Below, piece after piece: positions 26,653 through 56,860 of a stretch of 64,000 nt of DNA; position 1 is the first letter of the stretch; each line of letters begins with the position of its first letter. The stretch covers positions 124,001 to 188,000 of the forward strand of contig JAYKXP010000081.1 of NCBI GenBank assembly GCA_037176845.1. Direction: 5' to 3'. Source of the DNA: Paramarasmius palmivorus (Eukaryota > Basidiomycota > Agaricomycetes > Agaricales > Marasmiaceae). The position numbers and the translations under genes were made by a program. The notes under the pieces are model-generated. The model had not been told where the DNA came from, ran no database searches, and saw only the letters and a list, made by a program, of their open reading frames with translations.

Positions 26653-27040
26653 TGTACATCATTCTATTTCTTCTGGATGGTTTGAAAGGGCGTGGCAGAA
26701 CGAAATCAGGTTGCACCACTAAACTACGCCACCGCCTTCGTCAATGCGAGGGAATACTATGTTAGCATAGTTCGGGCATATCGGTCCTGATGTAACGTAT
26801 ACACGTGCACTCCACAACTCAATGGCCGTTGGAGTGGTATTTATGTGGCCGTGATCCTGGATTTGTTGTTCATCGTGATGATGCGGTCTAGCGCTGATCG
26901 ACTCACTGCAATAGGTTCACGGGAGTCCCTTCGAGAGCTTTGAGTGACATAGCGGGAAACACTTGATCCTGCGAGGAGCTGTTATGCTCCAGACTTCATG
27001 TCATCCCTCATGAAAACGGTGGCGTAACGTGTAACATATG
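26653..27040. other. Intergenic gap
   Basis: Nothing recognisable lies here. It is the region between the candidate first exon of BTB copy F and the stop of the NACHT-WD40 gene. Confidence 0.5.
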
Positions 27041-30000: not shown

Positions 30001-31636
30001 TTGGAATTGCAGAGAGCCCGTCGAAGAATATGCTGAAACCTCGGTTCTGGCCCCGTACTAATGAATACCTTCATGTACTTGGGTAGAACAGCGACGAGCT
30101 TCTCCAAAAACTGAAGAGCTGGCTTCATGTCCAGACACTCATCAAGTCCATCGATGACGAGGATAACAGGAAGAGCTTTATGTCCAAACAGGCTGGTGAG
30201 AGGATCAACGAGTAGCTTTCGAAGCTGAACGTCGACACACTTATGAACCAGCTCTTCGTTGCCAGCGAGGATCTGGTGTAGTATTCCACGAAAGGGCGGC
30301 GACCGGGAAGCGAGTTGCCCCACGAGGGTCGGAACGATGTTCCTGACCTTTGTCTGCGGAGAGACGAAGAACGTGGCGAGGTGTTTTTCGAAATGTTTAT
30401 CGCTGCTGGCGAGGATATGGGCAAGGGAGCACGCAATCGCGGATTTCCCTGTTCCTGATGGCCCATGAAGCCAGAACACTTGGTGCTTAACGTCCGAGCG
30501 GGCCCATTGAGCGATTTCGGAGAGTATGCGAGTGCGTGTGCCTTCGAGGCATGTCGGTCGATCCCCGCTGTCATAAGCGGCATGGTGGTCGTAACAATCA
30601 CGAAGTGCCGCTGCAGAAAAAATAACTCAGCGATGAAAGGTAGTATTAGTGAAAGCTGCATACCAATTTCCAAAAGTTTCTGGTTATAATCGCTGAGTTA
30701 GAAGTATTGACGGTGGATCTTTCGTGACATCACTTACTGCAACAGCGCCATGGGTTTTCTGTACGAGGTGGGATCAGTCTCTGGATAGAATTTCATAGAG
30801 TTAACTTGCCTTGATCGTGCTATAAGTGTATACTGCCACGCTAAACTGAGAGCCATCATTGAAGGGCCGCGACGGACCGAGTATGTATCAGCCTACCTGA
30901 GCGCTTTCGAATTCGTGGTTCAGCTTCGTTGTTAGGTCTCCGAGATATCTAGCATGTTCTTGAACGAGGAAAAACCGCTTGATCTTTGCGGAAAAGGACG
31001 CGGAAGATTCGGTGTGCGTCTTGATCTCGGTATGATAACGATCGAGATTACTGATAACAGAAGATGGCGGTAAGCCCACGAAACAAGTACTTGCGAAATC
31101 ATACCTCGATAGCTGATTCAACTTCTTGGCTACACCATCATCCAACATGTCTGCGGACTCCACACTGCGGAGAGGCGAAAGCACCTCTTGTAGTTGCTCG
31201 AGATATTGTACAAGCTCGTCTAATTGCGCTGCGTTGTCCTCGTAGACCTAGAATCGCGTTAGATCGTTCTTGGGGAAATAATTGTAAAGCTAAGCACCCG
31301 ATATAGCTGAAAGAGTGTCAATAGGCTTGAGGTAACTGAGGTTAGTCCTGGAAAGGGGATAATGTTTGACAGCCCGTCGAGCATTTCCGATACGAGCTGT
31401 AATGCGTCTACAACTCGTGCTTGCTTGACGCTCCTTTTCCTGTTGAGGAAGAATCCAGTTTGCTTGGGTGCATCTGCGCTGCGATCGCCTTGTACGGTCG
31501 TGGTTGCTACGAAAAGTCAACACTTGAAGCTTGAAGTTCAAAAGCATCGGCGCAACTCACTGCTGGTGGAAATCGTGCGCTTCACTGAGCGAAAACTGAG
31601 ATTGCGGAAGAGGGGAGGTATCTGAGGTTTAACCAT
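27041..31636 (-). CDS. NACHT-WD40 NOD-like receptor
   Basis: Seven exons (31636-31561, 31506-31298, 31247-30897, 30778-30738, 30692-30664, 30610-29111 and 29052-27041) give about 1405 residues with an open frame. Exon 5 is only 29 nt. The N-terminus is a helical domain with VYEDNAAQLDELVQYLEQL, the type seen in agaric NLRs and related to HeLo/MLKL-like cell-death bundles (inferred). A linker YDSGDRPTCLEGTR follows. The NACHT ATPase has Walker A GPSGTGKS (about residues 284-291) and Walker B VILVIDGLDEC (about 383-393). WD40 repeats fill the rest (ISSGGDRVITGHRAGKLQLW, CAAFAPDNSTLAVGTRDGNV, LAISPDGKRVAYGHRSGEVS, LAFSPNGKYLASISSNG), and the end has GWIIDRDGRKRTWIPR. Such receptors are linked to heterokaryon incompatibility and immunity in fungi. 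The gene appears intact. Confidence 0.92.
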
Positions 31637-32797
31637 CGTCGCTTGGGCTGGAGCAGAGCACGCAAACGCGTCTAGACCTTTATACAGTCCTGAAGTTCAC
31701 AGCATGGATCCGAAATTGTATATCTGACAGCCTCGAGGCTATCGAAAGCTTCGTTTTGATTCGATGCGACTTGCGAATCCCAATAGAAGCTGATGCAGAT
31801 ACTGTAATGGTATTTCGAAGCGGCTGTTGGGCAGTTTCGCTGTCGCTCCAACAGCCTTGAGTTTCAAAGCTTCATCATCCACTGTTTTTGAGCTCCATAG
31901 CCAAAGAGACGATAAGAAACGTCGTCGTCATCTGCCCTGCAAGTAGTAGATAGCGTGAATTTAGTCATATCTTCACTGGAAAAAGAGAAGAAATCTCACT
32001 AATGCATAATAAATTGCAACGACAGCCAAGCTCCTGTATACTAAGTGCAACAGCGAGAAACTGTACCCATTGCAGTGAATACTCTGCGGAAGAGTGTGAC
32101 GAGAAGGTTCCTGAACAAGCGGGATTACCTCACCCCTACCGCTCTTAACCAGCGTCCTTAGCGGTGTCTCTCTCGATGACGACGCTCCACATTACTACTC
32201 CCTAAATCCCTTTTCTACTCTCATCGTCATATATATAAGTTCCAGCTCTTCTGAGCCGGTCTCAGCCGTACAATATCTCGCTTCGCCGTTCGACAACTCA
32301 CCCATTGATAATCAACCGGTAATCAACTTGGAGCCTATCCATTTCGCAAGTTCCCGAGAAGCGGGATCGTAACAGGAGGGCAAAGGACTACAGAGGTCTC
32401 TCTGTGAAAGAGTTTTGAGGGACATTCGAAGGGAAAGGTCGAAAGCGACTGGAATAGTACCGTCGAGTCGACCTGGCTTGATACAAGTTTGTCTGGAAGA
32501 GGGTAAGGTCTTATCCGTTTACTCCTCTCGGAAGTTTCCTTACATATGCAGTCAGTTTCTTAGCGGGACCCCGTTATCATTTGGTGTTGCGGTGCACATG
32601 AGATGAACGTTCTATTGTCTCCCACATCATCTTGTTGCGATTCTACCACATCCTCAACCCTCGTGGTGACACCGTGTTCCAGCCACAATCGAAAGGATAA
32701 CATCCTTCTAACACATGCTGGAACCTGTGCCACAGCAAGACAGAAGCCTTTTAATCCATCACAGAAACCTCCCATTCTTGCATATCCTTCACCCACC
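31637..32797. promoter_or_regulatory. Intergenic region between divergent genes
   Basis: This 1.2-kb region holds the upstream sequences of the NACHT-WD40 gene (minus) and the Ser-rich gene (plus). TATATATAAG at 32229-32238 is the only TATA-like element I can point to; its distance of about 560 nt from the ATG at 32798 implies a long leader or an unseen intron. A frame is open back to 32603, but I see no support for coding there. Confidence 0.35.
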
Positions 32798-34210
32798 ATG
32801 AACTCCGTGAACAGACCCAACGGTGATGGCAAAGGGCCACTTCAACCTCATATCAGTAATCTTCCTCGACGGCGACCTAAACGTACCCCCAACAACGCTC
32901 CACCACCCGTCAGAAGGAAGGCTGTTCGGGCACCGAGTTCGTCGTCGACGGAAAATGCTTCCCGAGCAAACAAAACGTTGCACTCATCGAACCGTACTAC
33001 CTGCCCCTCTGATTCACCGTTACCTCAACAACCTTCTCGCAATTCCTCACCTTCACCTTCGCCTGCACGATCCTCGTCGTCGTCTCGGTCTTCATCGGCA
33101 TCGTCATCCGAGGAAGCAAATGACAACGTCCTCACAGGAGACACGACGCCATCTCGATCTATCCCACATAGTCTGGGCTTACCCAAGCCGAAAGGCCATC
33201 TTCAGCCCCACGTTCACCATATGCCGAGACGGAGACGTGCGCACCTGAAGCTCTCTCCTTCAGAGCAGCACGCCAAGTGGAGAGAAGAATGGGATATGAG
33301 GAAGCACAAACAGGAGGTCGTCAAAGGATCAGGAATATGGATCGCCTTTGATATCGGAACCTCCGCCTTTGTCGCTGTATCGAAAGGAAAGGAAAAGGTC
33401 CTCAGTTCTGAGGAGGAAGAAGACGAGGCTGACGCGGAGAAGCGTCAGGAGTTTGCGAGATACGCGCACGAAACGGAAGAAACGGAGCGACGAACGTTCA
33501 AGTATATCCTTAGGGTCGAGACACGACTTCCGCTGGACGCCGTGGACGCAACCTGTAGTTCCATAGGAGAAGATGGCAACACCCATAGGTTTTACATCCC
33601 GACCGACTCCATACGAGACGATGGTGTTGCCGTTCTATCCAACGAGCAGCTTACGTCTGCAGCAAAAACAGTCCAGGAGTTTTGGTCGTCCGAAGACACC
33701 ACCGGTGAAAGTTCGGACAGGAAAAATCTTTTGATTGTTACACCGCGTAATCGGCCCGTAGAAGCGATATCGCTGGCTATCCTCGTATACCATCTTCACG
33801 CTCAACACTCGTGTTCATCAGCTCCTTCACCCGTGGCTAACATTCTTCCACGGCGACCATCGACACCACCCGCGTTGCGATTCGATATTGGTGTATCCTC
33901 ATCAGCGCCATCATCAGCGCCGGAGAATACTCACGAAATCGTGACGTCGTCTTCGCCTGTTCCAGAAACGACTCTTTCCACGTCATGGCTCGAATCTTCG
34001 TCGGTTCATTCTGCTGCGCCGTCTTCTTCGGCGGATCCACCAGCTATCGTATCAGTGGACCCTATGACGCCTGAAGGCGCTGCACAGTCGCCTGCTTTGG
34101 CGGTGTTGACGCGTATGCATGATTTGGAGGATTTGAAGGAGGCTTGGAGGGGTGCGCTTTCGTATGAGGGAGTAGCTTGTATTGATGAGGTATTGAGGCG
34201 ATCCATCTAA
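32798..34210 (+). CDS. Ser-rich protein with repeated LQPH-PRRR motif
   Basis: A single exon of 470 codons. The frame opens at 32603, but the ATG at 32798 (MNSVNRPNGDGKG) starts the region with internal repeats and is preferred. Two copies of a motif occur: KGPLQPHISNLPRRRP near residue 11 and KGHLQPHVHHMPRRRR near 138. Between them is a Ser/Pro/Arg-rich, probably disordered stretch (SPSPSPARSSSSSRSSSASS). A folded-looking part follows (GIWIAFDIGTSAFVAV, acidic SSEEEEDEADAEK, then FYIPTDS and NLLIVTPRNRPVEAISLAI). The last piece faintly recalls the P-loop region of dual-specificity phosphatases but lacks the Cys-X5-Arg signature. Function unknown. The gene is divergent from the NACHT-WD40 gene. 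Confidence 0.75.
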   Translation: MNSVNRPNGDGKGPLQPHISNLPRRRPKRTPNNAPPPVRRKAVRAPSSSSTENASRANKTLHSSNRTTCPSDSPLPQQPSRNSSPSPSPARSSSSSRSSSASSSEEANDNVLTGDTTPSRSIPHSLGLPKPKGHLQPHVHHMPRRRRAHLKLSPSEQHAKWREEWDMRKHKQEVVKGSGIWIAFDIGTSAFVAVSKGKEKVLSSEEEEDEADAEKRQEFARYAHETEETERRTFKYILRVETRLPLDAVDATCSSIGEDGNTHRFYIPTDSIRDDGVAVLSNEQLTSAAKTVQEFWSSEDTTGESSDRKNLLIVTPRNRPVEAISLAILVYHLHAQHSCSSAPSPVANILPRRPSTPPALRFDIGVSSSAPSSAPENTHEIVTSSSPVPETTLSTSWLESSSVHSAAPSSSADPPAIVSVDPMTPEGAAQSPALAVLTRMHDLEDLKEAWRGALSYEGVACIDEVLRRSI

Positions 34211-39844: not shown

Positions 39845-40812
39845 ATGGCCTCCTCAGACCCGCCAAACACCCCATCTTGCCCCGGTAAGTCGCTGAAAAT
39901 CTCCATCTCGTATCAAACCCATTGATATCGTTTCGTTCCAGTCGACCACTGCCCTATTCCCGTCGATATCGCAATCAAATCCTCCGATGGACGTACATTT
40001 GGCGCACACGCGAAGAACCTCGAGTGGTTCACGGAAGGGTTCCCCCTCGTTGACTCCGTAATCAGCACAGTCCAAGAACCAGTAGAACTCACGGAGGATG
40101 GAGATGTACTTGCGCTCCTACTGACGTTCACACACAATTTACCTGCTCCTGACCTTACAGGACGCAGTATCGATGCAGTCATGGGGCTTGCAGATGCGGC
40201 TGATAAATACGGCGTGCATTATGCCTTGGTAGCATGCAGAAAAGCGATGAGGTACGAGCTCGGTTCCAAGTTTGTTTATGGTACTCTTGTTCATCTCTGA
40301 ACTGACAGGTCACTCTCTGAAGATTCTGAGTGTAATGCTCTCCGTATTGTCAAGTACAAAGCAAGCCATAATGATCTGGAAGATATCGATTATATCGCAC
40401 CGAGGACGATGAATTTCTCGATCGTACACGTGCTCGAATTCTTTGGAGAAGATCATGCAAAGCCATTTTGGCGATGGGTGAGGTGATCTGTGGCTTGGGT
40501 TCTTCAGGTTCACTGAAATAGTCTGTTTTATGTTAGGTGCGGTATCAACAATCTTATATGGAGGCACTAGAACGATATCGTAAGGCAGTTTCGGGATCAC
40601 CTATTCTTCATGAATTGTCCGAAGCTGGGTCCCCAGTAATACTCGGTCGCGGTCGCGGCCGCGGGGGTATATGGATACACTCATCCCAACGCAAAGGGGT
40701 TTGTCCCCAATTCGAAGACTTCTCAAAATTGGTTCTTTCAGCGCTCGAGGAAATCTCCAGCGTGGGGATGCCGACACCAACGACGTTTTCGCAGAACTGT
40801 GAAAATTTGTGA
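39845..40812 (+). CDS. BTB/POZ protein, second family, C-terminally truncated copy
   Basis: Exons 39845-39884, 39942-40251, 40309-40477 and 40537-40812 give 264 residues. The BTB domain (DIAIKSSDGRTFGAHAKNLE, then AVMGLADAADKYGVHYALVA) is followed by a helical part (EDIDYIAPRTMNF, ALERYRKAVSGSP). Exons 2 and 3 (310 and 169 nt) equal those of the intact sister at 53511-54557. After PTPTTF an extra base shifts the frame and a stop follows at 40810, so the conserved tail CLCGVD and about 40 residues are lost. They are still readable in another frame up to 40914. A short insert coding GRGRGRG near 40650 is also unique to this copy. Probably expressed as a shortened form, or on the way to a pseudogene. 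Confidence 0.8.
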
Positions 40813-41455
40813 AGTCGCTGCCGGAGGTGGCGACACCCTGTCTTTGTGGTGTGGATTACATGGTGCGAAAAATGTAGCAAAGATTCTGGAGAATCCACCA
40901 CGATGGTTGAAGTAATAGGTGAAATTCCGTCCAAGACTTCTACTGGGCCTACTTCCATAACAAATCGTTCGTCTGTGTCCATTTTAGGACTATAGGGTTT
41001 GCGCGAAGCATGCGTGATAAAATACTTGTACATACGATATCGTATGACTTAGCCATGTATTAAAGTACTTACCAGATTCCGAACATTCCTAGTAAATCAC
41101 CAGTAGTTGGGAAGGTTGGGCTTGCGTTGGAACGGAATTCGAAGAAATTGTCTCTGGACCCGTTCATTTATTAATACCGCTTGTATATGTGCTCAGGTTA
41201 CGAGTTCGAATTAGACCTGTGACCGATCCCTTAGTGACGATGACAAGTCATGTACTAGTTGAGCTGTAAAGGTGTTGCCCCATGTGTGCCATTTGGTGAT
41301 GGCGGTACACATTCCGTCTTCTATGTTCTCGCCTTTGTCTTTTCTCTCTCTTTCCATGATACGGGTTTGCAAGTGCCGTATAGTTGTATTTTGTTGCCTG
41401 GGCTTTTTACACCCGTACTCGGCATCTTCACGCTGGATGCCTGAAATGAGCATTC

Positions 41456-41643
41456 ACCTGTTTTGTTCGAGAATGCGCTTGTTAATACCGACCAAGGATA
41501 TGGGATATCGGAAACAATACCTTGGGATCTGAGATTGCCACATCAAAAGGCAGTCCGGTGGCCTGAAATTACGGTGGATACGCTGGAGGCGACATTGCAG
41601 CGATTGAGAGAATGCATGAAGGCCGCTAGTGTGTATGAGTGAC
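41456..41643 (+). other. Exon-like open segment, unrecognised
   Basis: One frame reads VLFENALVNTDQGYGISETI, then PWDLRLPHQKAVRWPEITVD, then LEATLQRLRECMKAASVYE and a TGA. The composition is protein-like and amphipathic at the end. No start or neighbouring exon could be joined. The rest of 40915-42119 holds nothing I can support. Confidence 0.3.
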
Positions 41644-42119
41644 CATAAATTGGGCTTTGAGTGAGAACTCACCCATGTGTTTCGCGCAAAGATGGCGACT
41701 ACCTTGATTATCGGCAGTCAAGTCCGGTGGGCCAAGTGCTCTGAGGTCGGGGATCTAAGGGATTCGAGCATTCATTCGTTGAGCTTTCCATGCGACGACG
41801 TTGATATTATGTACCTGCTGTGCTCGCGAGATGAGAATGCGGGGGACAGGACCTGACAGGACCTGGATAAGAACTATAACTACTCACCTTTCTTCAACCC
41901 GTAAACCCATAGTCAGCACGTCATTTGAGATGTGCAATGTATCCCGAAGTACTCAGTCTTAGGCCACGCGTTGTGTTTGATAACTAGGGCAGGGAAGAAC
42001 AGATGTAGCTGTGTCTGAAGTGCAAGAAAGAAGAGACACACTTACAAGTCTTCGGAACAATAGAATGAATTTGAGCCCTTGATAAATATATATATTGAGT
42101 ACTGCCTATATCCATGTAG

Positions 42120-42341
42120 ATGAGCGTAGTCCCCAGAGAACAAGATGGGCGTGAACTGACCGGTCTGGGACTGCCAGTGAAACGAGCCCTCGACGACCTA
42201 TTTTCTTTCAGAGACTGGTTCGACCCTCGAGTGTTGGCTACCTTGATGGGCGAAATAGGATCATGTTTGGCGAATGAGAAGGACTGTGTGAGTGTGCTTG
42301 TGGGTGTGATGGTGGTTTACAATCAAGAGGTGCTGTCATGA
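42120..42341 (+). other. Short open frame, unrecognised
   Basis: ATG to TGA frame with GLPVKRALDDLFSFRDWFDP and ATLMGEIGSCLANEKDC, protein-like but without family. A GTGAGT lies at 42287 after DC, so a donor and an unseen downstream exon are possible. It may belong with 41456-41643 to one damaged gene. Confidence 0.3.
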
Positions 42342-42493
42342 CGCGTTTGAGGAACGGCGTTCTGCCTAACCACCATCTTTCGTTCGACGCGATTTTCAGG
42401 CATCTCGTTCCTCTGTCGACCTTGGCTTCCTGCCTGTCCTATCAACAAGTCACTGAGGTGGATTAATGTGCGACTCAAGTTACAATAATGATG

Positions 42494-42515
42494 TTTTTTT
42501 TTTTTTTTTTTTTTT
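42494..42515. repeat. Homopolymer T tract (22 nt)
   Basis: Read on the minus strand it is a 22-nt A tract. It follows a short minus-strand frame that stops near 42531 (frame 42782-42531, ending EEKQGVSLLI). This could be the tail of a retroposed copy, or a plain microsatellite. Confidence 0.6.
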
Positions 42516-43045
42516 GCTGACGCACCTATTTTATATCAGCAATGAAACACCTTGTTTTTCTTCATTCACCATCACATCTCGAAATGTGTCGAGAATGGTG
42601 TCGTCGTCGAGCCTGTCAATGACAGAACGACGGGGACGATCAGCCACCCGAAACCGTTCAAGTGCTCCATCAAACCTCGTTCTCCCAGTGCCATAGCATT
42701 GATTCAAGGCGAAGACACTGCAATCTAATTCTATTTGCTCCGCTCCTGAATCATTTCCGCTCCCTGAATCTATACCAACCACTCCAGGCCCAAGCCTATC
42801 GTAGTATTCTGCGGGAACTGAGGAAGGCAGTCGATGTCTGTGGTGGGCCGTAAAGCAGTGAAGGACCAGACTTGGTTGGATAGAGCACCGTCACTTCATC
42901 AACACCTCCAACGTCGTTAACGTCGCCTTCATCATCACATACTCCCATAACATCCACAACACATCCCAACCATGCTGACCTTGCTCTGGAGTACCTCGAA
43001 ATCGTTCACTCCCTTCGCACCCGCACCGCCGTCCAACCCTTCTTG

Positions 43046-43078
43046 TTGACTGGCTTCGCATGATATATGTGCGCATGC
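43046..43078 (+). mobile_element. Short LINE-derived fragment
   Basis: The bases at 43047-43078 (TGACTGGCTTCGCATGATAT, then ATGTGCGCATGCA) are the same as bases 47437-47468 in the reverse-transcriptase region of the LINE, there coding WLRMIYVRM. The flanks differ, so this is a stray fragment or a recombination footprint. Confidence 0.7.
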
Positions 43079-43431
43079 ATCTTCACATTATGGGCGACTC
43101 GAGGTCGAGTTCGACAACACTCGTATGGACGAGCAAGACGCTCAGACATGGACGTGGAAGTTGCTCCTCGTCTTCTCTGCGACAAGTGTTCTCGATTTAT
43201 GGTGTTTAGACTCATACGTGCTCAACGCTATCACGTTTACACGCCGCCAGAGCTCTGACTGGGATTGCCATTGGCCCGCCGTCGACAGCGTCTTACACAT
43301 TATCATCCCCCACTTTGCTATACCGCGAAAGGATCGCTATTTTTCCGAAACCCCTCTATCGACTCTCCTTGGCTTTGCATTCATGGCCGAGGATCGAGCG
43401 GTGGAGTGGAGTCCCGTTATGGTCTCCGACA

Positions 43432-43563
43432 TGGCAGTGCCTTCACGGTGTCGGGACCGCGTTCGATTCCTAGGCATGGCAGTGTTTTCACGGTGCCCGC
43501 TTGCGACAGCTGATGCGTTCCCCTTGTATCACAAACATGCCAGTGTTTTCACGGTGTCTGAGG
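43432..43563 (+). repeat. Three imperfect direct repeats of about 25 nt
   Basis: CATGGCAGTGCCTTCACGGT at about 43432, CATGGCAGTGTTTTCACGGT at 43476 and CATGCCAGTGTTTTCACGGT at 43536 repeat with 44- and 60-nt spacing. They lie just upstream of the LINE, inside an open plus-strand frame (43125-43637) that I do not think is a gene. Possibly the 5' leader of the element. Confidence 0.6.
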
Positions 43564-43728
43564 GGTGGACGATTGCACAGAGTGTTGTCCTGCTGTTGTT
43601 TGTCCAGCATCACGTTCTTTTGGTCATGGGACACTGAGTAGATTCTTATCGCACAAGAGGTGCTGTCTCACCTGCCGTTCAAATATTGCACTGTTCGTGG
43701 TGGCCCCAAAACCTTCCTACGGCGCGTT

Positions 43729-46700
43729 ATGACCACCATTGCCGATATCACAGACCTTCCTGCTCTTCCGGCTCTGGAACCAACAGACTCGCCTGTCATT
43801 CTTGACCTCTCTCCCTTACCTCCTCTTGATTCTATCACGGCCACCGTGGCACCATCTTCGCCAACTCAGGCGACAACAACTCGCCAAATGACTCGCCAGA
43901 CGAGCAGGTCTTTGTCCAAAGCTGGCGGTAAGCTCAAGGACAAGAAAGTTCCGGAGAAGGACAAGCAACCCGAGCAAGAGCAAGGCTCCAGTGCTGCTCC
44001 TATTGTGTCGGACGATGATCTCTTGACGTATCAGCAGTTTGGTGTGTTCGTTGATTGGTGAATTATTGATGTCGTTCTGACTCTGCCACTCTTTTGCCTC
44101 CTAGGTCTCATGCCACCGGCTGCAAGCGAGTCTGCCAATGGCTATCGTCTGCGGGATGGAGACAATCTAATCAAGGTGGCACGTGCTCTGAAGGACTTTC
44201 TCGACAACTTCGCTACCGAGAAGAAGGTCCTCATCGACTCTCGTCAGGAACACCAACTCATGTTACATGAGACCCGCATTCGCCTCGAGAAGGAGATCGC
44301 CGAGCTCGCAGTGTTCGATATATCACGCGATGCTAATTTCCGCTCCCTTTATATGAGCGTGGCAAAGCTGATAAACGAGGTTCGGGATCTTAAGGCTACA
44401 GCTGCTCAAGCTCTACCTCCTCTTCCTGTGTTGGATGGTTCCTTTTCACCACCAACCAAGCGACCTTTGGTAGACGCTGAACTGCCTGTTGTGGGTCAAG
44501 CCAAGCGCCCTCGAATGGACACTTCCACAGATGTCCTTTGGACCCATGTCACTGAGGACGGAGATCCTCGTCAAGTAGCTCGCGTTCTCCTCAAGGGTAT
44601 TCCTTCATTCAACATCCGCGCACTGGCGACTGCCTTCAGGATGTCTCGTTACCCCAAGTGCATTGTTTTGCGATTCCACGAAGCATCTTCGGCTGCTTCC
44701 TTGGTTCACATCATGGCACTCGACTCGGGACTTCGCCCTGCTGGATATGAGACTAAGGCAGATCAGAACGGGAGGAAGGAACCAATGATCGTCTCCTTCA
44801 TGGATTCGGCTGTAGCAGACGTGGTAGCTGGCGGAGCTAATAAGTTGTCGAGCATTGCTGATGTGGCCGCTGGGTGAGACTGTTCTTGCACCATAGGCTA
44901 CATTGCAACTGTGACTGATTTTTGCTTGGACTTGATATTGTGTTATCATTGATGTACTAGTAACCGACCTTCTCAATTGAAGCTTCTTTCTTGGAATATT
45001 CAGGGGAACTTGTCACCTAAGATCAGGGATAGTCGTTTCATCGCGCGTTTCGCTTCTATGGATGTTGCCATTCTTGGAGAAACATGGTTGCGGTCGAATC
45101 AAGAAGATACGCTGCCCCTTCCACACGGCTGGGATGTCGTCGTATCGAGCCGTAAGGATCGTCCGGCTCACAGAAAGGTCATGGGAGGGATTGCAATCCT
45201 CCTCAGAGATGTCGTACCTTATCGAGTTCTCGAGTCGCTATGTGTACCTGATCTCTTGGTGATGGACTTGCCGGACTTCGTACTGGTTGGTGTATATCTA
45301 CCACCGGAGAACTCTGATTATGAACAATGGGCGGATGAGGATGTATGCCAGAAGCTGGAGGAAGCTCTGGTGTGGATTACGAGAGGCATGCAAAAGAAGG
45401 TGGTGGTCTCGGGTGATTTGAACGCGAGAATTGCACAGGAATTCCCGTCCAGGTCAGATGCTTCGGCTGGGCGCAAATCGATGGACACGAAGAAAACGAC
45501 GAGAGGTACATGGCTGTTGCAACTATGTGACGACCTCAATCTTGTCATTGTCAATGGTACGAGAGCGGAGACAAGTTCACCTGGCAGCTTTACGTCTTTT
45601 CAACCCCTCGGCTCCAGTGTGATTGATTATGTCATTGTGTCTCATGAGCTCTTCCTTCATCTTCCCGACTCATCTCTGGCCATACAGAGAGCTGATGATT
45701 GGTCGGACCACGCTGTGCTCTCCTGCACGCTACCTGTTACTGCCAATGCTCAAAGTGTGCCTAGTCCACAAGTTCCTCCTGCACTACCCCCTCCTTTGCC
45801 TCCTACAAAACTCGACTGTTTGGTCACAGACGCCCTAGAAGCAGCGAAGTCTCCGTTGGAACAGCGCCTCTCTCTCCTATATGGTCCGGTCTTCTTTGAT
45901 GAACCCCCAATTGGGGTGTATATCGCCGTCTCGGTACCTCCCAGCCCTGTTAATGCCTCCATTTTCTCCCTATATTGGGGTAAGGATGCAAAAGACAATG
46001 TTTGTCACAGTGTTCGAGGGAAGCGAGATGCAGGACGTGCAGCTCTGGCGGGTCTGCTATGTGCTCTCCAACGATTGGACTGCCAACCCCGCTCGTCAAA
46101 GATCAGACGAGTACAGGTCTTTACCACCTCGGACTACCTCATTCAGTCTCTCACCTCACTGGTCATACGGAACAAAGAACATGGGTGGGATAAAGCAAAT
46201 GCAGACCTTGTTCAACTCCTGGTGAAGTGGATCCAGCATCGTGTTGCACCTGTGGAGTTCACCCTTCTCAAGTCGACGACTACAAATGCCCATTTCCAAA
46301 AGGCTACTGCGGCAGTTAGGAAGTCGGTGTCGTCTAATTCTTTGCTTGACTGGAATCCTGGCAGTGTTACTCGTACGTCTCAATGTGATTGTTACCTTTG
46401 AATGGATGGTGACCTTTGTTTTAGCCTCGCCGCCTGTCCCAGGCAACTTTTGTCCAATACGGAATACATCAAAGGTTATTACACATTCCCCTATGGCTCC
46501 ATCCAATGGCGCGCCTCCATCATCACCACAAATCATCATTCCGACTGCCGATGACCTGTCAGAGGTCTCAGATGACTCTGATTGTGAGTCCGGGCAGCGT
46601 ACTACTCTCTCTCATCGAGGGAGACGACGTTTACGTGAACTCCGTCAGCGGAATTTGTCACGGCTTCTGAGCTGCTGCTCATCCCGTGAATTCTGGGACC

Positions 46701-47920
46701 TCATTAGAGACTGGACAGATCCTAAAAAGCGCCCTGCTCATGTCACTGCAGACATGCTTCGTGACAGTTTCTGCCGTCGGTTGAATCCTCCGGATGTCCT
46801 CCCCAGCAACTTCGATAGCGAGCTTTATGAAGCTCGGGCGGCTATGTCTGATGCCATTCCTTCCTCCACACATGATGATACGCCGGGACAGTGGTTTTCC
46901 CGTGCTTTCACGGAAGACGAGATTTGTGCTGCAAAGAAGCTTCTCTCCACACGCAACACCAAGTCGGCAAGAGGGATAGACAAAATCTCTTATCAGCTTA
47001 TTGATGACATACCGGTCGACCTCCTCACTTCGTTGTTCAACTCCTGCATTCAGGATTCCGATGCACCACGTGACTGGTTTACGACGGTATTAGTGGGCCT
47101 TTTGAAGCCACGAAAGGACTGTAAAGACCCAGAGGGTTATAGGCTGGTGGGATTGGAGTGTTGCCTTCTTAAGATGCTTACCCTGCTTATTGACCAACGA
47201 GTCCGCTCTTGGGCCGATTCCATTGCCATTATCCCTGACTCCCAAAATGGCTTTCGAGAAGGTTTCCGCACACACAACAACTCCTACATTCTTCGGACAG
47301 CCATTGAAGATGCACGCCATCAAGGAAAATCGTTGTATGTGGCTTTTGTGGACATCACCAACGCTTTCCCCTCGACACACCTTCCTACCTTGTGGGTGAA
47401 GCTTCACAAAGCAGGAGTTGCAGGCCCCCTTTTTGACTGGCTTCGCATGATATATGTGCGCATGCAGATCACGTTGCGCATGAGGTTGGTGGGTGAAACC
47501 CCCCCCCCCCCCCCCCCTTTGGGGGGGGTGGGGGGCCTCTCCCCATGGGGGGGGGGGGGCGAGCTTTCGTCCGCTGCATCATTTAAAAGCTTGATTGGAG
47601 TCTTGACTGGGGACACTGCTTCGCCGACGTTGTGGAACATCTACTTTGCAGATCTGACATTCCCAGACGATGCTGATGACATTGTCATGGATGGTCGCCA
47701 CGTCTCCCATTTAGAGCAGGCTGATGACGTGGTACTGTTCTCGACGTCGCTCACCGGGCTCCAAAAGAAGCTGGATCATTTTCGTCGATGGTGCGACTTC
47801 AACTTCATGACCATCAGTATTAAGAAGACTGAATTCATGGTGTTTGGCCCATTGCCATCATCACCGCCTGTCCTTCTCGTGTATGGTCACAAGGTCAACC
47901 TCGTCGACTCCTTCAAATAA
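43729..47920 (+). CDS. LINE polyprotein: ORF1 + endonuclease + RNase H-like + reverse transcriptase
   Basis: Four open segments (43729-44041, 44105-44873, 44961-46372 and 46425-47920) join in frame to about 1329 residues if three GT-AG segments of 63, 87 and 52 nt are removed. The ORF1 part is helical and basic (RIRLEKEIAELAVF). The endonuclease is complete by motif: LSWNIQGN, AILGETWL, VVSGDLNAR, SVIDYVIVS and WSDHAVLS, carrying the catalytic N, E, D, N and D-H. A segment at about residues 676-820 has an RNase H-like layout (KRDAGRAALAGLLCAL, QVFTTSDYLIQSL, ANADLVQLLVKWI) but lacks the acidic catalytic residues. The reverse transcriptase has FVDITNAFPS, LTGDTASPTLWN and QADDVVLFS, and then stops at 47918. 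Without splicing these are three separate ORFs. Confidence 0.8.
47499..47559. repeat. G/C homopolymer block inside the reverse transcriptase
   Basis: Nineteen C, three T, then runs of 8 and 6 G, a short CCTCTCCCCAT, and 13 G. It sits between reverse-transcriptase motifs A and B and would code runs of Pro and Gly. The C and G runs can fold back on each other. It is foreign to any reverse transcriptase and is either an insertion or a sequencing/assembly artefact. Confidence 0.9.
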
Positions 47921-49246
47921 CGTGGGTGTGCCGTGTTTGGCTTACTACCCGCGACATCTTTCTTGCACATTATCAACGCAAGGCGTCAAGGCTCGGAAAC
48001 GTGGCGAATGCTACTTTGCAGCAGAACAGATGGATTGGGTCTCTACCCCCGTTGAGGGAGTACGCTTGTATATGGCTCGGGTGGACCCACACCTCACCTT
48101 TAGTGCGAATCTTACTGCTGGACGTGGACGATAAGGGCCATTATTGTTGTTGGAGCGAGTACAGCTCCAATTTTCTCCGCCGCCTTCTCCATGTCAGACC
48201 GCCGCTCAGAGTCGATGTTTACTTTTCACAGAAACCGGGATGATGCCTATTCCGTGCGCGGAGAGTTCTCTTGGCCCTGGGCCTACCTCAAGTACATCTT
48301 CTCTCTCACCCGCCACCTTGCCCACCACTGCTTTTCGCGCATGCAGATCACGCTGACATTACACGGCTATCCGTGCCTGGTGTCTGACTTGCGCCTGGTG
48401 ATTAGCGCGCGATCAGAGTTCCACAGCATTGCTGTGGCTACTCCAGCATTGTTCTCGTGCGAGGGCGTGGATGTCGTTGTTCAACTTTAGTGAAGGTCTG
48501 ACTGCTTCTCAGCTTGAATGGATCTCGAGCGTCGTCCAAGCTTTGGCTTTTGCAGCAGAGAGTTGAATTCGACTCCAAAGGGGTACTCCACTTCCCTACG
48601 CCCCATGCGTTCCCGTCACTATTTGAAAGCTTAACACTCGATCCAAAACAACCGAAAGGCTATGTTCAGTTGGTGGACTCGGTCATGTCATGGTTTTGCA
48701 GTGGAGAGATTGAGAGTGGGTTGAGCGATACAGAGAGTTTGGTGCCGAGACAATTTGGGGGGGGGAGACTTTGCAGGTTTTGTCGAGCGACGTAGAAAGA
48801 CGAGGTACATGTATTGCTTGAAATGTCCTGGGTAACTCGGATGTCCAAGTGACTAGAGACACATTTTTACATACTCTATCTCTCGTGATTGCCCGCGCTC
48901 AGAACAATGTATGCTCCGAATCTTCTCGCTCTCTTTTTCTGCTACAAATCATCCCATAGACATGATACCCTTCCTCTTCGGCTAAATATGTCTCTGATAT
49001 TTCGCAGATATACGATTCTACCGAGATGTACATACCGGCACAACATTTATACCTGCCTCCATAGTAATTTCCCTTAATGCACGAATTGGTCTTATTTCTT
49101 TTCTGTCGGATTGCAGTTGATATTGGGAGACTGCTGCCTAAGCCGCATGTTCGGACCAATGTTGACTTGTAGTCCCCGTGGCATGTATGAGGGACGCCAT
49201 ACGTGTAGCACGGAAGCGGCCGTTCCGCAACGGGACCTGGTGCCGT

Positions 49247-49279
49247 TCTCCTCCTCCTCCTCCTCCTCCTCCTCCTCCA
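49247..49279. repeat. CTC trinucleotide microsatellite
   Basis: About eleven CTC units in the region upstream of the 49528 gene. No coding role is evident. Confidence 0.9.
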
Positions 49280-49527
49280 TCGACAGCTGGCATGAGCGCG
49301 TGCACGAAACAATCTCCACCGCTACCCAAACTTCCCATGCAGGCTCAGCATGTACTACAGCATTCACACTAACGCCCTCTGGAGATCATCGACCATTCCA
49401 TCTATCCATCACATCGTGCACCTGGCAACAGCTATAAAGCTGTGGGATGACTCTTGTTCTCCACGGTCTCTTCTGCTGTTCAATTACCACCACCAAGACC
49501 CTCAGCCCTAGTCCTCCTTTGCCAATA

Positions 49528-51898
49528 ATGGCCTTCAATAATGCCTCGCACTTCACCTTCACCGGTCAAGCTATCAACAATGTATCGGGCGACCAGTTCA
49601 ACGTCACAGGGGGAGTAGTACATATCAATTCACGGGCGGATGCTGAACCTACAGAATACGACGAGGTATGTGCACCTACAGTGACGTACTCTCATAAGTT
49701 GAACATGAAAATGATAGTTCAAACGGGTAACGACAGGGGAAATGTATCTTTTAGAAGAGATCCATCATGGCGTTATCTTGGCCTGCGGTCACTCACCCCG
49801 GTGGTGCAAATGTGATGCACGTCGTATAGCCCAGGGAACAATCTACAGTGTCGAATTGCCTGAGCGGAAAATCAAGTGCACCGCCATAGAATACAGAGGC
49901 CCAGAGGCACGAGAGGTTTGGGAGGAAGAATTCCGTCGTTTTTCACAAAACAGGTTCGTCACCGCCTTCCCCGCCCAACAACTTCACTGACAGCCAGATA
50001 GATCCCCCGACGCATGGCAACTCTACGGCCTGAACCGATCTAATGTCCCATTTTTGATCTTCCACGACAGTGAGTCTTCCTCCCTCTTCAGCAATGCCGT
50101 GTACTGATCGAGTTGGCGCAATAGAGCTTGTTCCTCTTGGGCATTTTTACAAAAACTCGTTCTGGGGGGATCTTTCTGTTTGGTGGTTGGCGGTGCGTCC
50201 TAAACTTGGTGTCTCCTGTACCTGCAAAAGCTGAACCTGTCTTTTTAGAAGAAATTGGCTTGCTATGAGTCGGAAATATGGTTGAACACGAGAGGGACAC
50301 TGACTAAGGGACCCAAGGGGCCTGGTTTTCTAGTCGAATACGCTACTGGAGAACCCGATGGAATGACTATCCCATCCTCAGCAAAGATGCTACAAGACGA
50401 CATTTCCTTTCAATTCTTCCAACAATTCCCTTCAAAGACGATGGACTGTCTCATTGTGGATTTTGCATGGGAACATAACTCAAGTTCACCGTTCGACTTT
50501 TTTCGTGAAGCGCCGCTCAACATCCCACCAGAAACCACCCCAGAATCCCTCGATGGGCTTCGCATTGATACTGTATACTCACCTTCACTGAGGGCTGTTG
50601 CGAGGTGGCGGGCGTCGTGGGAAATGGACAAGAGGGAGGGGTTGGTGGATAAAACGGTATTGGATGATGGGCTGATTCGGTGAGTGAGCGTGGGTGTAAT
50701 GGTTCAGTTTTTGGTGCTAATTTCTTAAGTTTCAAGCTAGACAGTCCAGATGTCAAGGCTCATTTCTCTTTTGACTGGTGCAAATCTGGGCAGAGTTGGT
50801 TGTCCCAGAGCACAAGGATCATCGATGCCTGCAGGATGCCAGGAACAGAGGAACAATGCTGTACGTCCTCCCCTTTCACTATGACAATTGAACTCATCAT
50901 CCTTCCTTTGCACAGATACAGTTTACTCATACCCTAAACTCATTCTCGAATCAACACCATCAAGATATCTGAATCGACAAAGACTCTTACCATATGAAGC
51001 ACCCCTGCCCATCTACCTCTTCATCTACCTTCTTCCCATGTCCGTGACTGAAATCGAGTCGTGGGGAGAAAACAGGACCTATTTCTGGTCTCTTGATGAG
51101 AATGGGCAGTCTGAGATGACGGAGGAGGAATGTAGCCAATGGATGGTTCCAAAGCTGGTTACAAAGGTAGACTTCCTTTTCGAGCCAAAGGTGCGGACAT
51201 GGCCAAGCTATGTCTACACCGCCATCCGCGACTGGCAAGTCGCTCGTGGCTTTGACCCTACCACTGCCGATTTTGCTCGGAGTTTGGGACATCCGGAGTT
51301 GGATATCCTCATCGATAACGAGACAATGGGAAGTCGGTTTGAAGAAGTTCATGGTTAGTCCCTCAATCTCGCAGTTGTTATATTGTTAATTTACGATTCA
51401 CAGAAACCTCGTCTTCTGGCTCATCTACGCCCGAAACATGGAGTAACCAAAGCACACCGGAGCACCTTGATATACCTCTGCCGGCTGAAGGTCAGTACCC
51501 GGTTCAAAGTTCTCTGTCAGTTTCGCCATCTCACTTGACAACAATAGTCGCAATCCCTCAGCCTTCACAATTCACCGTGCCGCCAAAGTATTCAAAGATG
51601 AAAGCTCAACCGAGAGCTGAATCACCTCAGATGCAGCCGATGATGGTTGACAGCTCAGACCCTGTGAGCATTCTGGGGAAACGCCAAAGAGGCAGTGAGA
51701 TTCAGACGAGAAGCACCAGACAAAGGGTGTCATTGTTTTTGGTAAGTCATTCAACGGCAAGTTCTAGATGATCGTGCTGACTATCTGCAGGTACTTGTGT
51801 CCTATACGATTCCTTGCTTCATTTGCATATTTATGTGTTATTCTTACTTTTCTTCCTCTCCGGTGGTTAGTATGCATAAGGCGCACAACGATACATGA
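49528..51898 (+). CDS. Unknown agaric protein with C-terminal membrane helix, 10 exons
   Basis: Ten exons (49528-49665, 49718-49953, 50002-50069, 50125-50192, 50249-50679, 50730-50860, 50916-51353, 51404-51490, 51548-51741 and 51791-51898) splice cleanly to 632 residues. The N-terminus HFTFTGQAINNVSGDQFNVT is a glycine/asparagine-rich opening common in agaric proteins of unknown role. The middle is a large folded region (GHFYKNSFWGDLSVWWLA, VARWRASWEMDKREG, WPSYVYTAIRDWQVARGFDP). Near the end are a basic, probably disordered stretch (SILGKRQRGSEIQTRSTRQR) and one membrane helix (FLVLVSYTIPCFICIFMCYS) about 20 residues before the stop. This suggests a protein anchored by its C-terminus with the large part in the cytosol. 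Family not recognised. Confidence 0.85.
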
Positions 51899-52390
51899 AA
51901 TGTGCGCTCTACGAGTTGAACTTGTTGTATTATATCGTCTATATCGTCCAATACTATGTATTTGACTCGGTTCTGCACCTCGCGTAGGATACCTTGATCA
52001 ATGGATTGCTATTGCCCGTCGGTGATATACTTGAAAGTAGCATCAACAACATCAGTGGCGCATTGAAGATGCGTTCAGGGTGTAGTGAAGTAGTCCGCTT
52101 GAATGTCATTTGTCGGATAACCATGCTGTCACGCCCGCATGTTCGTGTCTGGAGAACAGAACAGACATACGTTCCATGGCCAATTGAGCGTCAACTTTGT
52201 GAGGGTATTTAGGCTCTCATCAATACATACACGATAAATACACAGATTGTACAAAAGATATACTACATTACAGAAGTACCAGGAATTATACGTACTAGCG
52301 GAGTGGGTCGGCGATGGCCGAACGGTGCCTGTCAGTGGGTTACACCGACCCACAAGTTCAAGCTAGTATGATGATGACGACGGCGGAACG

Positions 52391-52665
52391 TTTTGCGTGT
52401 TAAACAGCTCGTTTCAGTATTTCGATGCTTCCCGGAATCTTCTACTGCATAGATGGTAGCTCCGTAATGAACGGTAGCATTGAATTTGAAGCAGGGCAAG
52501 AGGGCCAGAAATTTTAAGCGCCCAAAACTTGACCCCGAACCACCGCCTTGTCACCACCTCACGTGCCGGTTTCCTTCCTAGAGCGTCAGCTTTCCAACCT
52601 TGTGCTTCAGCTTTCAGGACCAGGAAATGAGCTGCCGACGAGCGTATTGGTTCTCTATGTCTCGT
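52391..52665 (+). repeat. Duplicated block upstream of intact second-family BTB gene
   Basis: TTTTGCGTGTTAAACAG at 52391 and at 54699 open two blocks that share GATGCTTCCCGGAATCT, AGATGGTAGCTCCGTAA, AAGCGCCCAAAACTTGACC, TTCAGGACCAGGAA and AGCGTATTGGTTC in the same order over about 250 bp. They lie before the BTB gene at 53511 and before its relic at 55028, so a unit of about 2.3 kb was duplicated in tandem. 51899-52390 and 52666-53200 hold no gene. Confidence 0.85.
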
Positions 52666-53210
52666 TGGACCGCTGGGATCCGACTGTAACTGACCGGGAC
52701 CCCTGGGTGACCTGGGTGAGTCAGTTCAGTTACGAGTTCGGATTTATCCGAATTCGTTCTTTATCGGTGAGCTCTGCGTTGGTCCTGTCAAACCCTGCCC
52801 TCTGATTGGCTGAATTCTTTTTAGTTTCTCCCACGGTCTCTGCATGCCGCCGGATGTTGTCGACAGCTGTCAAGATGTCAACCCCTTAATAGAAGTGTGT
52901 TCAGGCACATCCATGTTGCCCCCCAACTCTTCGCAAAGAGTTACATGTAGCTGGTACCATAGTTGATGTCAGCAGTAGGTACCCATCTATTGTTACCAGT
53001 GCTGCTGCTTTTTTACCTTGTTCCGGAAATAGATAGTGCACTTCTTATGATGAAACTATGACTGTAAATTCACTATATCCCTACTATCTACATGTAACCT
53101 AGCTCTAATTCAGCTCTATGTGAATACTCCAGTACTATGTATCTCCACAGAGATGCATATGCCGAACCCAACCAGCTCAAGGGCTTCAACTCTTTGTAAA
53201 TGTGATCATG

Positions 53211-53236
53211 TGACGACCTTGGGAGTAAGGTCGTCA
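53211..53236. promoter_or_regulatory. Perfect 10-bp inverted repeat (hairpin)
   Basis: TGACGACCTT at 53211-53220 and AAGGTCGTCA at 53227-53236 are exact reverse complements with a 6-nt loop, about 280 bp before the start of the BTB gene. It could be a binding site for a dimeric regulator or an RNA hairpin; function unproven. Confidence 0.6.
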
Positions 53237-53510
53237 TGTGACTCTCAGGGTTTGGTTAGGGTTGACAATGAACCGAAAGTTGAATGTTGAATGTTGACGC
53301 AATGTTGATATCGGGCAGACTTGGGTTATGCTCAGTACAATGAGAGGTGAGTCAATGTCCTTTGTTGAAAAAAAAAAAGGTGCCGAACTCGGTCCTGTCA
53401 GCGTTAGCTGACCCATTCCTGCTAGTCTCAGACACCCATTCTTCATTCATCCCCGAAAAAGTCCCTATTTAGCGAAGGGGTCGACCTCGTTTTGAGTACC
53501 TACTACCACA

Positions 53511-54557
53511 ATGCCGTCCCTCGAAAACCAGCCACATGCTCTTGCTTGCCCAGGTTAGTCACTTTTCACCTGCGTTTCATACAAGGCTCATGTTCGGTTC
53601 CAGTCGATGAATGTTCTTTCACCGTTGATATCGCAGTCAAATCTTCCGACGGACGTACATTCGGTGCGCATATGAAGAACCTCGAGTGGTTCACGGAAGG
53701 ATTCCCTCTCGGAAATTCCGTGACTTCGACAATTGAAGAACCAGTAGTGCTCATGGAAAACGGAGATGTGACCGAGCTTCTATTGGCGTTCACACACAAC
53801 TCGCCTGCTCCTGACCTCACAAGCCGCAGCCTCGATACGGTCATTGGGCTCGCAGATGCAGCTGATAAGTATGGCGTCTATCATGCGTTGACGGCATGCA
53901 GGCAAACTATGAGGTATGTAGTTGATCCTATGCCTACTATTGCCCTCAGTGTTGACACGTTGACAACCTGCGCTGCTGCAGACTGCTTTCCGAGGAATCG
54001 GAGCGAAACGCACTCGGTGTTCTCAAGTCCAAGCTGGCTCATAGCAATCTTGAGGATATCGATTATATTGCGCCAATGACGATGAAGCTGAAAATCGAAG
54101 AGGCACTCGATTTCTTTGGGGAGAATCATACAAAGGAATTCTGTCGCTGGGTGAGGCACCCTCAATGGCATAGGTTCTTCATGCTCACTGAAGCACTTTC
54201 TCGTGTTAGCTAAGGTATCAGCAAACCTACTTGATGGCTCTAGAGAAATATCGCAAAGCGATTTCGGAATTGCCTATTCGTCACAAATTGCCAGATATAG
54301 TGGATCCCAAACGTCCAAGCTGGGCCAACATCAACCGCACAGTAGTCTGTCCCCAATTCGCAAACTTTTCGAGATCGGTTCTTGCTGTGCTGGAGGAGAC
54401 CTCGAGTGTAGGATTCCCAACACCGACAACGTTCCGTAGAACGGTGAAGTTTGTTGAAGCACTGCCAGGAGTACCGACGCCCTGTCTTTGTGGCGTGGAT
54501 GCATGGAGCGAAAAGGTAGTAAAGATTCTAGAGGATCCGCCAAAGTGGTCAAAGTAA
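53511..54557 (+). CDS. BTB/POZ protein, second family, intact copy
   Basis: Exons 53511-53553, 53604-53913, 53982-54150 and 54210-54557 give 289 residues. BTB/POZ core: FTVDIAVKSSDGRTFGAHMK, NLEWFTEGFPLGNSV, LLLAFTHNSPAPDLTSRSLD and GLADAADKYGVYHALTACR. A helical second half follows with EDIDYIAPMTMKLKIEEALD, a Phe/Trp turn (FFGENHTKEFCRW) and the Cys-containing tail TPCLCGVDAWSEKV. This layout (BTB, then about 150 residues ending with a LCG-type motif) is frequent in agarics. BTB proteins dimerise and often recruit CUL3; substrates here are unknown. It serves as the reference for the truncated copy at 39845 and the relic at 55028. Confidence 0.9.
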
Positions 54558-54698
54558 CAGGAGATACTTACTTAACCGGGCCCATAACAATCTGGTATCC
54601 ACTCCAAGATTATAGGACTGTACGAAGCACGTTCGGGGTGGATTCGGATTCACATGCCTGTGGTTGACTACTGATACGTCCTGGACATATGATGAATG

Positions 54699-54945
54699 TT
54701 TTGCGTGTTAAACAGTTCCTTTCAGTATTTAGATGCTTCCCGGAATCTGCTAATACATAGATGGTAGCTCCGTAAAAAACTGTACAGGTTGAGGCAGGTC
54801 GCGAAGCAGGCAAGAGCCCGGGCCGAATAGAAATTTCAAGCGCCCAAAACTTGACCTCGAACCATCACCACCGTGCTTCAGGACCAGGAACTTTGGTTTA
54901 ATGAGCTACCGGCCAGCGTATTGGTTCATCTCTATTCAAATCGAA
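54699..54945 (+). repeat. Second copy of the BTB-upstream block
   Basis: Partner of 52391-52665, described there. It precedes the BTB relic. Confidence 0.85.
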
Positions 54946-55027
54946 GTGGGTGTGTAATCAAATGATAGAACACGTTAGCCAGACTATGAACCTCTGTGCA
55001 CTCACTATTCGCGTCGGCCAACCAACA

Positions 55028-55350
55028 AGAAAAGCGATGAGGTACGAGCTCAGTTCTGAGTTTGTTTGTGTCCTTCTTGTTCATCTCTCATCTGGCAGAT
55101 GGGTTCTCAAGAATTTGAGTCTAATGCCCTCTGTATTGTATAGTACAAAGCAGGCCGTAATGATCCGGAACTTGAAAATATCGATTATATCGCGCCGAAA
55201 ACAATGAATCTCTTGATTGTACGCGTGCTCGAATTCTTCGGAGAGGATCATGCAAAGCCATTTTGGCGATGGGTGAGGTGTTATTCTATGGCTTGGGTTC
55301 TTCAGGTTTATTGAGATAGTTTTGTTACCTTAGCTGAGATATCAACATCT
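55028..55350 (+). pseudogene. Relic of a second-family BTB gene
   Basis: The bases match 40240-40550 of the truncated BTB copy, exon and intron alike: AGAAAAGCGATGAGGTACGA, AATATCGATTATATCGCGCC, and CATGCAAAGCCATTTTGGCG followed by the GTGAGG donor. The BTB domain before it and the C-terminal exon after it are missing, and stops interrupt the frame. Similarity is higher to the 39.8-kb copy than to the neighbour at 53.5 kb. Confidence 0.85.
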
Positions 55351-55597
55351 CGCTATCGTGGATAGCGAAGGCGATGTCATATGCACACTCCCTACAGCGT
55401 ATCTCGAGACCAAACTGATTTCATGATCTCGTCTATCAACTGCATTCTATCCTGCCAGCTCTCTCCTCGGAACTAGGAGTGTTAGGCACTGAACCTCAAA
55501 GGTCAGGCCGATTGTCCTCGGTAACGGAGCTATACGACAAGACCACGAATGAAGCTTTCCGAGAGGTCTGTCACATTATCCCTTTGATCAGCTGCAA

Positions 55598-56860
55598 CCA
55601 CTGTATGCCCGTTTTTGCTGGACAAAAATCGTCCTAAGCCGTCCGGGAACGTTCCAGCATGTCCGGGACGGCCCGTGGACGGGAAGAGACCGCATCGGAC
55701 GGTATAGGATGTGAATGGACATTCCGAAAGACGTCCGATTACGTCCAATCACGTCCTGTCCCGTCGATAGACAGTCCCAGGACATTCCAGTACCAGAAAA
55801 AAGCGAAGGGGTTGCAAGATCCTTTCAAATCAACCTTGACCAAGGGGACAGTCGAGGGACCAACACTCGACCGTGTCGTGGCCCGATCGGACGTCTTTCC
55901 GACGTATCCTCGACGTATTCCTGGCGTCGCTTAGCACGCTCAGGCTGTCACGCTTTACGAGCCGTTAATCTTTTTTTTTTGCGAACTCATGAACATACAA
56001 TAACTTAAATAAATCTACTACATGAATCAACATATTCGGAGGCATAGATACATAGCTCATCTGATAGCACAATACTAGTAAAGTGGTATAGATAAAAAAA
56101 ACATTGATGGCAAAGTGATGGATGAAAGTGGGTTGACTGGGCTGCTACAAGCAGAGTTATGAGGATGTAGGACATTGAATGCATACTATTAGAGAGTATA
56201 TATTCCAATTTTCGGGGGAGAAGATTCAGGGATGACAGCGGACAATGAGCGTTTTTTGGGACGGGCCGGCGCTTACATGTTCAATGCACTTCTCTGTTCG
56301 CACCCCGGCGTCTTTCTGGTAGCTGAACTTTTGGATCTAGCAATGCAACAAGAATTGGCGTAGGAGTGTTTGCATATCAAGAGTATGCTGGGCCATTTTG
56401 GGAGCTGAAGGGGATGTAGGGTCAGCATCATAAATTAATCTTCATATCTTGGCAAGGTATAGTATAAGGGATGTTATATTGCTAAGATTTAATATATGGC
56501 CTGTGACTGTGACCGTTGGGCGTCTTGGGCGCATCTCGGATGCGTCGGGGACGGCTTGTCGACGTGTCGTGGACGTTCCGCGGAAGGTCTTCCGTCTGAC
56601 TAGAGAGGCTCCCTGTCATCCTCATAGCAGTCGAGGGCCGCTTTCACGCAATCCTTTACAGTCCTTTAAATGGCGGTCCTAGACTGTCTGTGGAATGGAC
56701 TGGACTGGATTGGACGCCATTGGCAGTGAACGGACGTATATCAGGCAGTCCATTCTCGTCGGATCACGTCGAATGACGTCCGATCCCGTCCAATCCGGTC
56801 TGCGGACATCACTCGACTGATTAGGACGATTTTTGTCCAGTGAAAACAGTCATACCACTG
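55598..56860. mobile_element. Non-coding element with terminal inverted repeats
   Basis: CTGGACAAAAATCGTCCTAA at 55618-55637 recurs as its exact reverse complement at 56821-56840. Outside it, CACTGTATGCCCGTTTT on the left pairs loosely with the reverse complement of the right end (CAGTGGTATGACTGTTTT). The ends therefore form inverted repeats of about 40 bp with CACTG/CAGTG tips. Inside each end are many GACGTCC/GGACGT motifs, as in subterminal transposase-binding arrays. The 1.26-kb element has no ORF of note and no clear target-site duplication. It looks like a non-autonomous DNA transposon (MITE-like). Superfamily undetermined. Confidence 0.75.

Follow-up and report, generated by a model that had tools for sequence, protein, structure and literature searches.

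The 64,000-nt stretch of Paramarasmius palmivorus DNA analysed here (the window, part of contig C81 in a genome assembly of 68.3 Mb and 393 contigs) contains an element that is probably best described as a LINE of a basidiomycete-type clade, with a one-frame protein gene interrupted by three host-type spliceosomal introns. We place the probability that the three interrupting segments are spliced introns at about 0.86, and we infer that splicing occurs and that a polyprotein is the working product. Splicing is much likelier than translation from separate ORFs because of the splice-signal scores, the placement of the same signals at null positions, some homologous proteins that cross the first two junctions without an insert, and the late position of the first endonuclease ATG.

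The interrupted frame and its locus

An earlier note on this DNA had pointed to three segments beginning with GT and ending with AG, and all three were found where it had placed them, with lengths of 63, 87 and 52 nt. They also interrupt translation as it had claimed, with one in-frame stop in segment 1, two in segment 2 and a shift of frame in segment 3. The gene model lies on the + strand and opens with exon 1 (43729..44041), which starts at the first ATG, downstream of an in-frame stop at 43639, and encodes the N-terminal part of ORF1. Putative intron 1 (44042..44104; GTGTGT...TTCTGACTC...CCTAG, phase 1) is followed by exon 2 (44105..44873), which holds the remainder of ORF1 and has no Pfam match, and then by putative intron 2 (44874..44960; GTGAGA...TACTAG, phase 2), the sole GT-AG pair of 45-90 nt found to restore the frame. 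Exon 3 (44961..46372) encodes an apurinic-type endonuclease and then an RNase-H-like domain, and putative intron 3 (46373..46424; GTACGT...TTTAG, phase 1) separates it from exon 4 (46425..49061), which encodes the reverse transcriptase and the C-terminal part and whose end was placed through its correspondence with a second copy on contig C41. The phases of 1, 2 and 1 are all mutually consistent. Intron 3 has an alternative acceptor at 46442, which gives a 70-nt form in the same frame with a score of 17.4 versus 16.8; the shorter form preserves a PPVPG stretch that is present in the homologue P0001.

With the segments omitted, ORF1, endonuclease and reverse transcriptase are joined in a single open frame, as the earlier note had proposed; its estimate of about 1329 residues was too short, since the frame of the C41 haplotype runs to 1673. 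The order in the product is ORF1, endonuclease, RNase-H-like domain and reverse transcriptase, and the Pfam matches are to PF03372, PF14529, PF00078 and, weakly, PF00075. The endonuclease domain (44986..45711; PF03372, E 4.3e-10) keeps the seven catalytic-type positions that were checked, and the reverse transcriptase (PF00078, E 1e-19) keeps its catalytic D, D and D. The RNase-H-like domain, placed approximately at 45907..46340 by alignment, lacks the D-E-D-D residues and matches PF00075 below its cut-off (E 0.0015). Splicing would yield a message encoding a single 1673-residue polyprotein, while translation of unspliced RNA from the same ATG would stop after 110 residues of ORF1.

Assignment to the LINEs follows from a reverse transcriptase domain with its catalytic Asp residues, an apurinic-type endonuclease upstream of it, and a 5'-truncated copy, on contig C26, that has a 3' tail in common with the element. 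A Penelope-like element was considered and rejected, as a GIY-YIG endonuclease had no Pfam match. No clear target-site duplication emerged: in the window the search returned a 9-nt match between 49281, two bases past the tail, and 43504, where about one such match is expected by chance; around the C26 copy the longest match was 7 nt and lay away from the edges of the insert.

The element is longer than first noted. Its earlier end at 47920 is not the true end of the frame, and that stop falls inside a disrupted stretch (47468..48994, + strand) that differs from the C41 haplotype in 241 alignment columns, of which 130 are gap columns. Small indels are closely spaced in the window copy there, along with long runs of C and of G, most likely the mark of unpolished assembly, and frames within the stretch are accordingly not trustworthy. 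The C41 haplotype shares all three segments, and its last exon is intact (a 908-codon open last frame); the C26 retrocopy gives a gap-free alignment to C41 over 1434 nt. The C41 frame is interrupted three times, each time precisely within a GT-AG segment, and its 1673 codons are otherwise unbroken. The 3' end of the element is a (CTC)n microsatellite tail (49248..49278, + strand), closing at 49278 and common to the C26 retrocopy.

The window and C41 copies are identical in alignment over 42495-47467 and 48995-50400. Upstream, 52 columns differ over 40500-43600, the last of them at 42494; the flank at 49300-56300 is 98% identical over most of its length, and the matching parts of 26000-34000 are 90% identical or less. 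Since these flanks differ, C41 was rejected as an assembly duplicate and is taken as the other haplotype of one locus. The identity around the element gives way to a divergence of about 2-10% or higher in the more distant flanks, and may be due to gene conversion, to recent sharing or to a collapse in the assembly.

Several repeats accompany the locus. Three 24-nt direct repeats (CATGGCAGTGTTTTCACGGTG-like) lie at 43429..43558 on the + strand, some 170-300 nt before the first ATG, and are possibly promoter or 5' UTR repeats of the element, a function that we infer. A 38-nt near-copy of the reverse transcriptase segment 47429-47466 occurs upstream of the element at 43042-43079, and the disrupted patch of the window starts right after 47429-47466, the second copy of this near-repeat. 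The flank at 49353-52290 belongs to a high-copy repeat with more than 20 further copies at 75-82% identity.

Splice signals, homologues and separate reading frames

A host yardstick was assembled from 23 chaperonin-gene stretches in which the frame is fixed by flanking profile matches. Four stretches (L055, L058, L060 and L067) had no clear GT-AG intron fitting the profile gap and were dropped, and for L070 and L072 the gap-fitting candidate was kept though others ranked higher. The 19 introns retained in this way lean to consensus donors, because they were chosen partly by donor match; they are 47-62 nt long, with a median of 52. The earlier description of the segments as like host introns thus holds for the splice signals and fails for length, the 87-nt segment exceeding all 19 sampled introns and the 63-nt segment lying just above the top of their range.

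The signals were scored by donor, acceptor and branch-like motif, with the host introns treated leave-one-out except in the branch matrix. Segment 1 scored 21.1, above all 19 host introns; segment 3 scored 16.8, above nine of the 19; and segment 2 scored 13.0, above four of the 19 and so low in their range. All three segments have GT-AG ends, a branch-like motif and a score within or above the host range. For a null, the same geometry was slid along other LINE coding sequence (partly that of this element) and along the remainder of the window. No place among 3285 was as good as segment 1, as against 30 of 3331 for segment 2 and 261 of 3182 for segment 3. These counts are rough: overlapping places are not independent trials, and real introns are probably present in the remainder of the window. 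The signals of segment 1 are clearly beyond chance and those of segment 2 moderately so; those of segment 3 are not beyond chance by themselves.

Relatives within the genome are fused and lack introns. One on contig C25 (1938 aa, stop to stop) has endonuclease, RNase H and reverse transcriptase in one intronless frame by Pfam, and another on C22/C100 (1962 aa, stop to stop) has the same three domains in one intronless frame by alignment of the C22 copy. Both have the domain order of this element, and the reverse transcriptase part of the C25 relative is 36% identical to it over 730 aligned columns. A protein search with the ORF1 of this element gave no match in either relative.

Proteins from other genomes allowed the junctions themselves to be scanned. 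There were 50 protein matches, of which the first 17 were aligned and eight were scanned at the junctions, ungapped and with lengths of 24 and 32 residues. P0001 of Mycena venus (1850 aa) is 45% identical over product residues 365-1670, and P0013, a protein of 1815 aa predicted on a 7874-base JGI contig, can be aligned with 90% of the product at 33% identity. P0001 and P0003 (Tricholomella constricta, 1835 aa) each have an N-terminal part, endonuclease, RNase-H-like region and reverse transcriptase in one protein. The best homologues with a species name belong to Mycena and Tricholomella, both mushroom-forming fungi, which points to a host of mushroom type. In each of the 17 aligned homologues one protein carries the RNase-H-like region together with some or all of the reverse transcriptase, and in 15 of the 17 the endonuclease is represented as well, wholly or in part.

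At junction 1 the exon 1 residues before the junction match P0001, which placed the joined sequence at the expected position with a score of 49 versus 20 at the next-best place (24 residues) and 54 versus 18 (32 residues). P0004 had the expected place as best, tied at 18, with 24 residues and lay elsewhere with 32; P0003, P0008 and P0013 gave no support in the ungapped scan, and P0002, P0005 and P0006 stop short of the junction. Junction 2 was supported by P0003 and P0008, near-identical proteins of one species (Tricholomella), at 21 versus 12 and 15 (24 residues) and 38 versus 13 and 14 (32 residues). With 32 residues only, it was also placed by P0001 (25 versus 10), P0004 (19 versus 13) and P0006 (28 versus 16), placements that are driven mainly by the endonuclease side and absent with 24 residues; P0013 gave no support in the ungapped scan, and P0002 starts at the endonuclease and P0005 inside it. 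At junction 3 none of the eight homologues was supportive in the ungapped scan, since the linker there is poorly conserved. Most homologues spanning the first two junctions come from annotated gene models, which may be spliced themselves. By eye, P0005 differs from P0003 in having 17 additional in-frame residues, intron-like in length, close to where the reverse transcriptase begins; they may stem from an intron retained in another LINE of the clade.

These results bear directly on the reading of the element as a bicistronic or tricistronic LINE with separate ORFs, expressed by reinitiation, stop read-through or frameshifting, in which the GT-AG segments would be due to chance. ORF1/ORF2 LINEs are common, the endonuclease and reverse transcriptase frames share 176 nt, an overlap of the kind that frameshift sites may show, and the null matches to segment 3 leave room for chance at that site. 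An ATG at 44110, just past segment 1, could start the exon 2 frame alone. The first ATG of the endonuclease frame, at 45058, lies downstream of the SWNIQGN motif at 44989-45009, so that a separate ATG-started ORF would lose this first motif and could not yield a complete endonuclease. Read-through would have to pass three stops plus one shift, the relatives are single-frame, and the signals of segment 1 exceed those of every null place. We know of no LINE layout with endonuclease and reverse transcriptase in separate ORFs, and a search for split-ORF homologues, covering proteins of similar length, gave no match to the exon-2 ORF1 frame alone and one weak match to the endonuclease frame alone. 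The separate-ORF reading as a whole is improbable, and read-through, reinitiation and frameshifting were rejected as the main reading in view of how many stops would have to be passed, how late the first endonuclease ATG lies and how the relatives keep a single frame. The earlier note had offered chance in a bicistronic element as one possibility, which is unlikely, and fusion by splicing as another, which is supported by host-type signals, fused intronless relatives, insert-free junctions 1 and 2 in some homologues, and the lack of an ATG for a complete endonuclease. It is more improbable still that the copy is a decayed one with its stops and frameshift due to ordinary damage, for which the disrupted 3' part of the window copy might speak, given the otherwise unbroken C41 frame, the retained active-site residues and the existence of a recent retrocopy.

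An RNase-H-like domain without canonical residues

The RNase-H-like domain was compared across 20 proteins, namely this one, the C25 and C22 relatives and the 17 aligned homologues. All four catalytic residues are kept in 11 of the 20, and nine lack the canonical residue at every one of the four positions: this element together with P0001-P0005, P0008, P0009 and P0013. At these positions P0003 has a gap at one, and another acidic residue stands at two in P0004 and at one in P0009. The C25 and C22/C100 relatives, intronless and with all four residues, differ from this element, with its three segments and none of the four, and the C25 domain matches solved RNase H structures. P0001 and P0003, compared here as protein models, resemble this element in having the domain without canonical catalytic residues. 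The checked positions of the endonuclease and reverse transcriptase are kept nearly throughout, where the proteins cover them.

On a reverse transcriptase tree, in which P0004 has a long branch and P0009 an unusual make-up, the two RNase H groups need at least three changes, so the residues were probably lost, or regained, more than once. The pattern suggests a recurrent pseudo-RNase H in this LINE clade, with a recognisable domain kept between endonuclease and reverse transcriptase.

Copies of the element and the persistence of its putative introns

The only full-length locus found is that of C81 and C41, the two haplotypes. The C26 retrocopy is 5'-truncated, starting at the equivalent of about 47811 in the window, downstream of all three segments; it has one coding and two tail differences in 1434 nt and ends in the same (CTC)n tail. 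Judged from sequence, this copy shows that RNA of the family entered the genome very recently, and its copying could have been carried out by the machinery of another element. A related site on C367 is without the insertion. Nine further short matches, at 68-98% identity, cover the 3' end of the element only, and two cover an inner piece.

The comparison of copies that had been proposed as a check on splicing was run, and the only two copies found to span the segments are the C81 and C41 haplotypes, which are identical there. No copy lacking exactly these segments was found in this assembly by the whole-element DNA search or by protein searches part by part, and each of the three exon-exon joins, allowing up to three mismatches, had zero matches in the assembly. 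Repeated introns of the introner type were also considered and rejected, as the segments were unmatched outside the two haplotype copies in the whole-element DNA search, which gives lower bounds.

That an element copied through RNA should lose introns, as the earlier note remarked, is a fair statement of the puzzle. Gain of the introns after insertion, unspliced RNA as template and a captured gene all fit what was found. We give about even odds to intron gain at the DNA level, in this locus and after its insertion, with or without capture. Capture itself, in which a single locus would be under selection for a host role and would have gained introns as host genes do, is compatible with real introns and is a possible, if doubtful, account: one full-length locus was found, on both haplotypes, with three introns and an intact frame, but the retained endonuclease and reverse transcriptase active-site residues, the retained 3' tail and the near-identical truncated retrocopy on C26 speak against it, being as in a mobile element.

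A similarly tentative account, also compatible with spliced introns, is that a mobile lineage retains them by using unspliced (or antisense) RNA as template and spliced RNA as messenger. Family RNA was copied very recently and the sole full-length locus found bears introns; the C26 copy, however, begins downstream of the introns and is silent on them, and among proteins of similar length no close split-ORF homologues were found. Cis-preference of LINE proteins would moreover favour spliced copies. It is rather unlikely, though conceivable, that the element is a LINE, mobile now or until recently, that needs splicing for its translation and uses unspliced RNA for its copying, so that the introns would survive and splicing would set the amount of polyprotein. 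We know of no earlier LINE with such a split between spliced messenger and unspliced template.

A precedent for introns in retroelements exists elsewhere. Penelope elements are described as dispersing intron-containing genes, unlike all other retrotransposon types (PMC3846280). Their retention of introns speaks for the unspliced template. As described there, Penelope-like elements are likewise able to hold a spliceosomal intron in their ORF, but they belong to another class of retroelement and have a GIY-YIG endonuclease, where the element studied here is a LINE with an apurinic-type endonuclease (PMC3846280). Tad and Deceiver are named as fungal LINE clades (PMC3411680), and are likened to this element by class, as fungal non-LTR retrotransposons. 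No report of a LINE with introns in its ORFs was recognised in a literature search that covered mainly papers outside the subscription journals, an absence that does not establish novelty.

Movement through RNA should strip an element of its introns, and retention of three in a LINE would be odd. With its three putative introns, a near-perfect recent retrocopy and retained active sites, the element makes intron gain inside mobile DNA directly testable, and it likewise makes testable the control of a LINE by splicing, or its takeover by the host as a gene.
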